DNA of 7,843 nucleotides, taken from assembly GCA_022704585.1 (NCBI GenBank), contig JAKJGD010000076.1:1-7843 (forward strand), written 5' to 3'. A program made the position numbers and the translations under genes. The DNA is from Spirochaetota bacterium (lineage in GTDB: Bacteria > Spirochaetota > UBA4802 > UBA5550). Of the stretch, positions 4,030-7,843 are shown piece after piece. Numbering within the stretch: the stretch's first letter is position 1; each line of letters begins with the position of its first letter. The notes beneath the pieces are model-generated. The model saw only the letters and a list, made by a program, of their open reading frames with translations. It did not search any database and was not told the DNA's origin.

Positions 4030-5517
4030 CTAGATATATTTCGGCTCCTTGTAGGAGTACATGTCGTGCACGCCGCCCTCAAGCTGGGCGGACAGCGACC
4101 TCAGCTCAAAACGGAGGGTGCCATCGTAGAGCTTGTCGTGCAGCGATTTCATGTCCTGGGTACCCATGTCCTGGAAGGAATGCTTCAGGCCCTGGATCAG
4201 GTAGGGCACGAACTCGTTGAGGGAGCCTTTGTCAACCACGGCGCCGGAAACGCCCTGCACGACCTTGATCTTGGTGTCTTCGGCGAAATAGCGCTTGGCT
4301 CCTCCCGCCTCGAGCGCCTCCTGTGAGGCCATGCCGCGGTATTTCTTCAGGCGCACGCCGTTCTCGTAGAAGTATTCGCCCGGCGCCTCGCTGGTGCCGG
4401 CGAACATCGAGCCCATCATGACGGCCGACGCCCCGAGGGCGAGCGCCTTGGCGATGTGGCCGATGTTCGCTATTCCGCCGTCGGCGATGATAGGCACATG
4501 TTGCTTACGCGCATACCGTGCTGTCCGGTACACTGCCGTGGCCTGTGCCCTTCCGACCGCCATGGTCATCTGCGTGGTACAGATGGAGCCCGGGCCCATG
4601 CCGATCCTCAGCGCGTCGGCGCCTGCCTTGATGATCGTGGCGCCCTGCTCCTCGGTCACGACATTGCCGCCGATCACCTGTATGTCCGGATATTTCTTCT
4701 TTATGTAGGCGATCATCTCGACCTGGTAGATCGAGTTACCCTGTGCGGCATCGATCACAATGACATCGACCCCGGCCTGTGCAAGCGCCTCCAGACGCTC
4801 TCTTGATTCTTCGCGGGTGGAGATGGCCGCGCCCACCATGAGCTGCTTCCGCGGGTCTTTAGACGCCAGGGGATATTCCCTGTTTTTCAAGAGGTCTTTT
4901 CTCGACATCAGCGCAACGAGCCTGCCCTGGCCGTCAACGATGGGCAGCTTGCCCTTCTTGGAGTTCTTGAGTATCTGGTTCGCCTCCGAGAGGGATATCC
5001 CTTTCTTTGCCGTGACAAGGTCGGTTGTCATTACCTCTGACAGCTTCTTTGTCCGGTCGGTTTCGAAATCAACATCACGGTTGGTAACGATGCCCAGGAG
5101 CAGTGAATTGAGCTTCCCGTTCTCGGTGATGGGTATGCCCGAGAAGCCGTACCGCTCCTTGATCCGGTCTATGTCGCTCAGGGTATTGCCCGGCGAAAGC
5201 ACGATAGGGTCGTTGATAAAGCCGTTCTCGAACCGCTTCACCTTGCGTACGTGCTCGGCCTGCTCCTCTATGGTGTTATTGTAATGGATGATCCCTATGC
5301 CGCCAAGCATCGCCAGCCCGATGGCCATCCTCGATTCAGTGACGGTGTCCATGGGACTCGAAACCAGGGGGTTCTTGATGCGTATGTTCCGGGTAAGATT
5401 GGATTCCAGAGTGACATCATCCGGCGAAAAGTCAATATAACCGGGCAGGATAATGAAATCGTTGTATGCCCAGCCATTTTCTTTTGTAAATAATTCTTCA
5501 GCGGAAAAGCCGTCCAT
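4030..5517 (-). CDS. guaB: IMP dehydrogenase, eukaryote-like type
   Basis: IMP dehydrogenase oxidises IMP to XMP with NAD+, the first committed step of guanine nucleotide synthesis. It is a cytoplasmic TIM-barrel tetramer with an inserted pair of CBS domains. Counting from the ATG at 5517 (495 residues), the barrel start [13 protein letters not shown] is followed by the CBS pair at about 105-220. The catalytic loop GSICTTQ has Cys313, DGGI is near 346, and the flap carries the Arg409-Tyr410 dyad. Many stretches read like human IMPDH2, for example [30 protein letters not shown] and the C-terminal SAQ-EGGVH. Arg304 and Gln421 match the human residues Arg322 and Gln441, where many microbial enzymes have Lys and Glu. 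A GTG at 5529 would add four residues, but it overlaps GAGGAG (5529-5534). That motif serves better as ribosome-binding site for the ATG at 5517. No guaA lies beside it. Confidence 0.97.
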
Positions 5518-5562
5518 TGGTAATGACACTCCTCAGACCAGATTATTCAAAACATCGATGAA

Positions 5563-5784: not shown

Positions 5785-6147
5785 ATGGGCCACTGTAAAC
5801 GAAGAGGATACTGCTGTCAGGATGTCCGACTGGCCGAATCTCCGGATTTGCTCAGAACAGCCTATGAATTCTGGAAAAAATCATCGAAAGTCGACCCGAA
5901 TTTTTCAGAAATATACATGATATTCCACATGCTGGTATTCAAACATGAAAATCCCGAGGAAGACCTCCCGTACCATTATCAGTGCAAGCATTATACCACC
6001 GATGAAAACGGCGTGCCCACCTGTTCCATACATCCGTGGCGGCCCAGGATGTGCCGCGACTTCCCCTATTACGAGGACGTCAAGCACCTGGATCGGGACG
6101 AACCGCTTTCACCTTACGAGGGCTGCGGGTACAATGACCCTGACTGA
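5785..6147 (+). CDS. YkgJ-type cysteine-cluster protein (CxxCxxCC/UPF0153 family)
   Basis: This 120-residue soluble protein belongs to the family described as putative zinc- or iron-chelating proteins (PF03692 type). The cysteines fall in the expected pattern. CKRRGYCC at residues 4-11 opens the protein. Cys67 and Cys80 bracket YTTDENGVPT, CSIHPWRPRMC (80-90) leads into RDFPY, and Cys114 lies in GCGY near the end. The 'C.i...RP..Cr.fP' segment is the family hallmark. Members are thought to bind a metal or cluster, but no reaction is established. The ATG has a modest ribosome-binding site, AAGGA at 5767-5771, spaced rather far away (13 bases). The gene is divergent from guaB across an AT-rich gap and has no operon partner upstream. 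The next gene downstream appears to have its own promoter. Confidence 0.88.
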   Translation: MGHCKRRGYCCQDVRLAESPDLLRTAYEFWKKSSKVDPNFSEIYMIFHMLVFKHENPEEDLPYHYQCKHYTTDENGVPTCSIHPWRPRMCRDFPYYEDVKHLDRDEPLSPYEGCGYNDPD

Positions 6148-6324: not shown

Positions 6325-7843
6325 ATGGAATACATTAATATCAGCCACAAGCGGGAATATGAATACAAGATTCACGCGGTATCGAGCGAGCAGCACGAAT
6401 CCTACTCGGTGTTTAACGTTCAGCGCGATAAAGGGCACTGGTCAAGCCGGAAAAGCGACGAGAACATCCAGGAGTATATCATCCTGGATTTCCAGAGCGC
6501 CGTCACCATAGATTTTATCGAGATGACCGCATCACCCGGCGGCGCCAGGAACTTCCCGCACGACTTCCGTTTCGAGGGAAGCCTGGACAACTCCAGCTGG
6601 ATGGTCATCCACACCGAGAAAAAGCTGGAGCTTGACGACGCACCGTACCGGCTTGACATCCCGCTCACGCTGGTGCGCTACCTCAAGATTCTTATCATCT
6701 CCAGCCATCAGCAGGATGGAAAATATTATTCTGAGATTGGGCGCATTCGCGCCGGTATCGCCGGCATCGCCGAGATAAAAGCGAGCAGCGCGGCGTCCAC
6801 AGACCACGGTGCCGAGTGCCTTCTCGCGGGCAGTCCTGAATCATACTGGGAATCGGAGCCAAAGTCCCATGCGGTCAAGGAGACAATTTCCATAGACCTC
6901 GGCAAAATTTTTCACGTCAACAGGATCATTCTCGGCTCCGCCGCACGGGGTTTCCCGGAAAACATCTTCATAGAGACAAGCTCGGACAACAATGTCTGGA
7001 TGCCGCTCCTGGAAGAGAAAAACTTCAAGGCGCAGGTAAACAAGAAATACTTCTGGAACACCGACATCACTCCCGCGCGATATATTCGCATCGAGGCGAA
7101 GGGGACAAAATACCCGGAAGGCAAATATGGCATCCAGCTCACCCAGCTGGAGATCTCGGCCGCGGCCTTCAATCCATTCCACACCCATAACATCGGCGAT
7201 CTTACCCCCTACTCATCCATATTCCAGGCGGGGATCGTGCGCTTTGCAAAGGACGGCGACGACGCGCCCGGTACCGCGGTCCAGGCAAACGACCGGCGGC
7301 TCCGCGACGCGACAACCATATTCAAGGGCATTGTCCAGCTCGCAGAGGACGGCGATCACTCACAGGGCCTGGCAGTCCAGTCATCCGACTCACGCCTGAA
7401 GCCGGCGACCGACCTGAAGTACGGCACGGTCAGGCTGGCCCACAACCGGGAGACAAAGGCAGGCTCGGTCGTCCAGGGAAATGATTCCAGGCTCCAGGAG
7501 GCAACGAGCGGCAATTTCGGCATAGTCAAGCTCTGCCCGGACGGCATGTACAAGGACAACGCGGCAGTCACCGGAAACGACAAGCGCCTGCACAAGGCGA
7601 CCGTGGAATCGTTCGGCATATGCAAGCTTGCCGGTGATGGTTCAGTTGCACAGGGGACTGTCGTGCAGGCCAATGACAGGCGCCTTCGCAATGCGACGTC
7701 TGAATACCCGGGAATCATCGAGCTGGCCGAGGACGGCGAAGCCGGTGCCGGCGTCGCTGTACAGGGGAACGACAGGCGCCTCAAGGACGCAACCACCACG
7801 GCAAAGGGTATCGTTGAACTGGCCGATGACGGTGAAGAAAGGG
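6325..7843 (+). CDS. Tail-fibre-like protein with two discoidin-like domains and 32-residue repeats (3' end outside window)
   Basis: The frame is open from the ATG at 6325 to the window edge, giving 506 codons with no stop. Residues 10-145 and 150-280 each look like an F5/8 type C (discoidin) jelly-roll domain. Both have a buried Trp (W39, W175), an 'iiLDF' or 'isIDLG' strand, 'f.fegSlDnssW' or 'ifIeTSsDNnvW', and a closing 'vRYLKI' or 'aRYIRI'. Such domains usually bind glycans or lipids. A linker with HTH at 286-288 follows, as often seen in phage fibres. From Gly303 the chain is a run of 32-residue repeats with core GIVxLAxDG and VQxNDxRL, like phage tail-fibre repeats. There is no signal peptide or membrane anchor. 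The ribosome-binding site is weak (CAGGA at 6307-6311). TTG at 6298 is an alternative start, and the nearest in-frame upstream stop is at 6244. It could be a phage or tail-like-particle receptor-binding protein, or an adhesin. Confidence 0.85.
   Translation, partial: MEYINISHKREYEYKIHAVSSEQHESYSVFNVQRDKGHWSSRKSDENIQEYIILDFQSAVTIDFIEMTASPGGARNFPHDFRFEGSLDNSSWMVIHTEKKLELDDAPYRLDIPLTLVRYLKILIISSHQQDGKYYSEIGRIRAGIAGIAEIKASSAASTDHGAECLLAGSPESYWESEPKSHAVKETISIDLGKIFHVNRIILGSAARGFPENIFIETSSDNNVWMPLLEEKNFKAQVNKKYFWNTDITPARYIRIEAKGTKYPEGKYGIQLTQLEISAAAFNPFHTHNIGDLTPYSSIFQAGIVRFAKDGDDAPGTAVQANDRRLRDATTIFKGIVQLAEDGDHSQGLAVQSSDSRLKPATDLKYGTVRLAHNRETKAGSVVQGNDSRLQEATSGNFGIVKLCPDGMYKDNAAVTGNDKRLHKATVESFGICKLAGDGSVAQGTVVQANDRRLRNATSEYPGIIELAEDGEAGAGVAVQGNDRRLKDATTTAKGIVELADDGEER
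7231..7843 (+). repeat. Tandem 96-bp (32-codon) repeats in the tail-fibre-like gene
   Basis: Units begin at codons 303, 335, 367, 399, 431, 463 and 495 (positions 7231, 7327, 7423, 7519, 7615, 7711 and 7807). That makes six complete units and the start of a seventh. The spacing is exactly 32 codons throughout, with no insertion or deletion. Conserved unit positions are Gly1, Val3, Leu5-Ala6, Asp8-Gly9, Val17-Gln18, Asn20-Asp21, Arg23-Leu24 and Ala27-Thr28. The DNA copies are visibly diverged, so the array is old and held by protein constraint rather than recent duplication. Repeat 4 has Cys and repeat 5 has Cys at core positions where the others have Ala or Val. Confidence 0.93.

Follow-up and report, generated by a model that had tools for sequence, protein, structure and literature searches.

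What is a gene for a phage-type fibre doing near guaB at the end of a spirochaete contig? The stretch analysed here (7,843 nucleotides, called the window) breaks off inside this gene, and the first-pass annotation took the place for the possible boundary of an undescribed particle locus. The features of the window are collected in Table 1; everything said about the part beyond its right end was deduced from relatives.

Table 1. Fibre gene and left flank in the window (window positions)
Feature	Position	Strand	Remarks
guaB (IMP dehydrogenase)	4030..5529	-	flank conserved in L001 and other near relatives
CxxCxxCC (PF03692) protein, flanking gene	5785..6147	+	closely similar frame at the same place in L001
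Fibre gene, 5' part	6325..7842	+	506 codons, runs off the window end; homologues share the start Met
First F5/8 type C (discoidin/CBM32-fold) domain	6325..6765	+	residues 1-147
Second F5/8 type C domain	6772..7173	+	residues 150-283; holds more invariant columns
Linker with FHTHN	7174..7224	+	residues 284-300; low pLDDT in the P0002 model
Six complete 32-residue tail-collar-fibre repeats	7225..7800	+	residues 301-492
Seventh repeat, start only, cut by the window end	7801..7842	+	

As a description of the reading frame the first-pass annotation held up. The two F5/8-type domains score above the curated cut-off of the PF00754 profile, have a beta-sandwich fold and are N-terminal as claimed; the HTH linker is present, and the repeats, announced as at least six of 32 residues, are six exact copies and part of a seventh. 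The phage-type build is borne out by the match of the window repeats to the tail collar fibre family PHROG 910 (E 5.6e-10). The frame lacks a Sec signal, as had been stated, and the 26 codons between the start and the upstream in-frame stop contain no hydrophobic core, thus no hidden signal. Because a phage-type build is combined here with the absence of a Sec signal, the fibre probably folds and trimerises in the cytoplasm, in line with the cytoplasmic assembly proposed earlier.

The supposed particle locus did not survive the comparison with relatives. The fibre of L001 is 74% identical to that of the window, and sequence likeness shows that the order Mut7-C protein, nitroreductase, guaB, CxxCxxCC protein, fibre is kept between the two. 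When the rightward search for particle genes was run on L001, the fibre gene proved to be complete, and was followed by a signal-bearing protein, D-Tyr-tRNA deacylase and other ordinary genes. The contig ends inside the repeat array, or the gene is split, not only here (window positions 7225-7843), but also in L002, L003, L049 (genome G043) and L065 (G182), and the fibre genes of G043 and G182 each lie in two frames. As several contigs of relatives also stop within the repeats, the missing right flank of the window is probably an assembly effect.

The neighbourhoods of other relatives gave the same picture. At 19 loci without a par-rep cassette (see below) we collected up to four mechanical ORFs of 80-700 amino acids on each side; these 145 frames matched 25 PHROG families at E<=1e-5. 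No family name among them points to a virion component or to lysis; one family is an HNH endonuclease, and 11 carry no description. Among the best 25 of 102 Pfam families matched by these frames the commonest were PLD, D-Tyr-tRNA deacylase, thioredoxin, hydrolase and IMPDH. At the par-rep loci the neighbours were grouped into clusters, of which representatives were searched against Pfam alone. A search of 50,697 phage records with the fibre found no match at E<=1e-5. Phage_sheath_1 occurs in 18 of 296 Spirochaetota genomes, 2 of the 84 with the fibre and 16 of the 212 others, which indicates no positive link to the fibre, and the depletion is not significant (Fisher p 0.11). In the only two fibre genomes with a sheath, G054 (contig C64) and G194 (C9, C10), it lies on contigs other than that of the fibre. 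It could be argued that the protein is the tail fibre of a prophage, a tailocin or another particle encoded partly elsewhere in the genome, as its repeats and C-terminal domain are of phage type and 16 viral contigs share the repeats. These viral matches are, however, confined to query residues 246-620, and the 12 of 16 viral frames examined by eye look differently built. Taken with the ordinary flank in L001, the virion-free neighbours, the lack of phage-record matches and the rarity of the sheath, this makes such an origin very improbable. The particle-free neighbourhood is well supported, and a particle locus is rejected on the L001 flank, the 145 neighbours, the phage records and the sheath counts: the fibre is real and conserved, and as far as relatives show its gene does not belong to a particle locus.

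The relatives also revealed the whole protein, which is mostly about 840 or 1,100 amino acids long and whose architecture is well supported. Sequence or model shows that two N-terminal heads of discoidin fold are followed by a shaft, usually with 8 or 14-16 repeats, then by an HxHxYA..H motif and a stretch rich in Gly, and that the protein ends in a Peptidase_G2-like domain. The monomer models are of poor quality over the shaft, and again between the His motif and residue 725 (block pLDDT 33-76). P0002 has only 861 residues compared with 1085 in its relative L001, possibly as a result of assembly collapse. The heads match glycan-binding CBM32 modules best; they share the fold of CBM32 and F5/8 type C modules (1eut, galactose oxidase, the intracellular muskelin and IFT25), but the fibre differs from these in that no catalytic domain or signal peptide was found. 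Over the L001 repeats the PHROG 910 match reaches E 5.6e-20. The 32-residue repeats are thus common to the tail collar fibre proteins and the spirochaete fibre, but there were at most four D-x-R-L motifs in the 12 viral frames examined (none in that of L097, which may be the wrong frame), whereas the spirochaete arrays have 8 or 14-16. A match of PF08017 (Fibrinogen_BP) to L001, below its cut-off (5.1e-5), is probably a repeat artefact. By an N-terminal hydrophobicity measure none of 31 fibres and none of 37 partner proteins (see below) has a signal peptide, and an N-terminal membrane stretch is absent from all 31 fibres; in 6 of the 31 a single internal stretch of 19 residues is on the borderline of membrane-like hydrophobicity.

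For the C-terminal domain we started from 45 gene rows, left out the window, L002, L003 and L049 as incomplete, as well as 4 of the remaining 41 which lacked the search motif, and were left with 37 members. The best PDB match of their profile was the phi29 preneck appendage 3gqh (E 0.0035), with two others up to E 10. PF11962 was matched weakly, by 12 of the 37 at E<=0.5 (best 0.00067); against a curated cut-off of 25 bits L001 scored 17.1, P0002 17.0 and P0020 14.9, and P0039, P0059 and L077 gave no match. The close relatives P0236, P0244 and P0247 carry PF11962 as a precomputed domain, and a profile search with the C-terminal domain reaches PF11962 proteins of other phyla, one of them named peptidase G2 (1e-21). 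Judged by these profile matches, the domain is probably related to the domain (Peptidase_G2) that serves phi29 gp12 in assembly. Hypothetical proteins of two Streptomyces plasmids, NZ_CP108358.1 (L080) and NZ_CP108617.1, match the C-terminal part of P0059 (residues 597-838 and 697-838) with about 30% identity.

It is instructive to compare the fibre with gp12. They resemble each other by profile in the C-terminal domain (Peptidase_G2, or intramolecular chaperone), and share the lack of a signal; gp12 is assembled in the cytoplasm without one. The two differ in that the fibre carries F5/8 heads at its N-terminus, has no virion genes nearby, and lacks in 37 of 37 members the Asp of the D-x-A-E motif, which we take to be the phi29 cleavage site with a catalytic role. 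The Glu is present in 18 of the 37. The Asp is also missing from P0236, P0244 and P0247, whereas both residues occur in all nine more distant relatives, which were chosen mostly for their PF11962 mark and of which three sources are named (Saprospiraceae, Blastocatellia, Pyrinomonadaceae). With the Asp gone from the spirochaete members, self-cleavage has probably been lost. Four of the nine distant relatives (P0268, P0282, P0308, P0310) are hydrophobic over a stretch within roughly their first 60 residues, and the five without it may be fragments.

Tandem arrays usually drift in copy number. In the fibre, eight repeats (seven spacings of 32) were counted in 20 of 20 par-rep loci, which are those of the second replicon; in L065, where the gene lies in two frames, all eight are in the second. 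L075 also has eight, L071 fewer. Among the 18 other complete genes (L001, L037-L048, L050, L066-L069) 16 have 14-16 repeats, with 15 spacings in ten genes, 14 in three, 13 in three, nine in L046 and seven in L047. It must be noted that the counts were made by a regular expression, so that degenerate repeats are overlooked and stray motifs included. In view of the usual drift, the near-constant number suggests a constraint on length.

The fibre is common to Leptospira and its kin, that is, Leptospirales and neighbouring Spirochaetota; it was detected in 84 of the 296 genomes at E<=0.001, with G253 as a borderline case (8.5e-4). A protein of about 330 amino acids without Pfam or NCBIfam match, which we call the partner, was likewise found in 84, and 81 genomes have both (fibre only: G126, G171, G253; partner only: G138, G202, G217). 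This co-occurrence follows the clade, thus it is not independent evidence of joint function, and shared ancestry explains part of it. The fibre loci were labelled A, B, C or O from their gene neighbourhoods. In type B the partner adjoins the fibre divergently (8 of 8 loci, a small mechanical ORF intervening in L047), and in type C, the par-rep loci, it lies within the 20 kb analysed in 20 of 20, as it does in L071. It is present at none of the 14 type-A loci, to which the window belongs, yet all 13 type-A relatives have it at another place in the genome; its neighbour in G001 is the PLD-domain gene that it also adjoins in type B. A short second copy of about 160 amino acids stands in tandem with the full one in L052, L053, L064 and L076, and a second unnamed protein of about 300 amino acids (L087:353-1258, L088:323-1285) shares the helical segment of the partner (model positions about 197-270).

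The par-rep arrangement was also read from replicon records. In a 350-kb L. interrogans record labelled plasmid, which by its size and LIC2 numbering we take to be chromosome II, as well as on the Turneriella plasmid pTURPA.01, the order is partner, HTH/Fis-type regulator, then parA, parB, an HTH protein and the fibre, with one extra gene between HTH protein and fibre in Turneriella. A second L. interrogans record starts at parB and agrees with the first from there. The gene in the partner position is 93% identical to P0188 in L. interrogans and 25% identical to P0121 in Turneriella (E 4e-23). The HTH protein after parB was taken for the putative rep gene; the accessible text of PMC2229662, and also that of PMC8558515, describes chromosome II origins as a partition operon with a downstream putative rep gene. 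In L. interrogans the fibre gene directly following this run is LIC20001/LB001. The fibre follows parA-parB-rep in 20 type-C loci, in 19 of which the parA cluster was found; L053 and L064 have another parA/parB-like pair, at a distance of a few genes from the fibre. In L071/L090 (G091:C3) the partner, the Fis-type regulator and the fibre stand without parA, parB and rep between them, adjoined by the usual downstream clusters. This could be a naturally unoccupied site of the chromosome II cassette, or one from which the cassette was lost. The fibre tree (midpoint root, several branches below 95/80) sets the par-rep loci apart. On its other side the type-B rows branch outside 12 type-A rows including the window, and L045 (type A) is found among the B rows; the long branch of L049, a repeat-region fragment of the G043 gene, is meaningless and was ignored. 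The simplest reading of tree and gene orders would be that the partner/fibre pair is ancestral, that the par-rep cassette came to lie between them in Leptospirales, and that the pair was split in the lineage of the window.

LIC20001/LB001 appears in print as a conserved hypothetical protein (PMC5979558, PMC2387172, PMC5348505, PMC3953431, as far as the accessible parts go). It is listed in PMC5979558 at 91.0 kDa as an 'F5/8 type C domain protein', which fits the discoidin protein of L078 (838 amino acids, 90,967 Da computed, 37% identical to P0002 over 792 columns) by size and description only. Its clade has eight repeats and a place on the second replicon, compared with the 14-16 repeats of complete genes near the window. 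As evidence of expression, LIC20001 was found there bound to a ClpB trap, with five peptides at 37 C and none at 42 C, which says nothing firm about the place of the protein in the living cell. Searches of our literature library by domain and genus yielded no dedicated study of the family.

Two further explanations have to be weighed. The place of the gene behind parA-parB-rep, in type-C loci and on pTURPA.01, together with the published outline of chromosome II origins, could mean that the fibre is a replication or segregation factor of this replicon, such as a tether or spacer for the ParB-bound origin. The family is not, however, confined to genomes with the cassette: the rep protein was found in 37 of 296 genomes, 36 of them with the fibre, but 51 genomes without rep have the fibre and/or the partner (47 both), and in L071 the partner, the regulator and the fibre are retained although par-rep is absent. 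We therefore disfavour replicon maintenance as the main function, and regard this explanation as improbable. A better case can be made for a fibre that is exported to the surface by a non-Sec route and binds environmental or host glycans through its heads. It is consistent with the CBM32 match of the heads, with the hydrophobic N-termini of four of the nine distant C-terminal relatives, and with the selection of LB001/LIC20001, by prediction only, as an outer-membrane or extracellular candidate in the accessible parts of PMC2387172 and PMC5348505. Against it stand the N-termini of the fibres, with neither a signal nor a membrane stretch in any of the 31, the lack of a secretion gene among the identifiable recurrent neighbours (best 25 of 102 Pfam families), and a transcript unchanged in host-adapted cells according to the available portion of PMC3953431, though one expression column in that of PMC5348505 reads 'down'. 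We consider a surface location rather unlikely, if less so than a replicon factor.

The explanation we prefer, to which we give an even chance, is a stand-alone phage-style fibre, inherited across Leptospirales and neighbouring Spirochaetota, which is not part of a virion, is most likely cytosolic and goes with the partner. We infer a trimer, a cytosolic site and a role as tether; the fibre probably serves, together with the partner, as a spacer or tether in the cytosol. If it behaves like that of phi29 gp12, the C-terminal domain would nucleate the trimer in the cytoplasm and, with the cleavage motif gone, may stay attached as an end cap. The near-constant repeat number suggests that the shaft could serve as a spacer of set length holding the heads away from this cap, and the heads may bind a protein or glycan ligand. 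The partner, which has nearly the same distribution as the fibre and likewise lacks a signal, is a likely docking or regulatory factor. Counting against a cytosolic site are the mostly extracellular glycan-binding habit of discoidin/CBM32 folds, the predicted localisation of LB001/LIC20001 and the internal hydrophobic stretch of some fibres. As a tentative extension, which may well be wrong, we suggest that a cytosolic fibre made of phage appendage parts, of near-constant length (8 or about 16 repeats) and with its cutting site lost, acts with the partner as an intracellular ruler or tether, and that the partner/fibre pair, being the site of the par-rep cassette, is a possible birth site of Leptospira chromosome II.

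A phage-type fibre in a bacterium is usually attributed to a prophage or a tailocin. The one described here extends over part of a phylum, shows no sign of a particle and keeps its number of repeats nearly constant. Its localisation bears on whether phage fibre architecture was turned to intracellular use or to a surface structure, and the gene order gives a starting point for asking how Leptospira came by its second chromosome.
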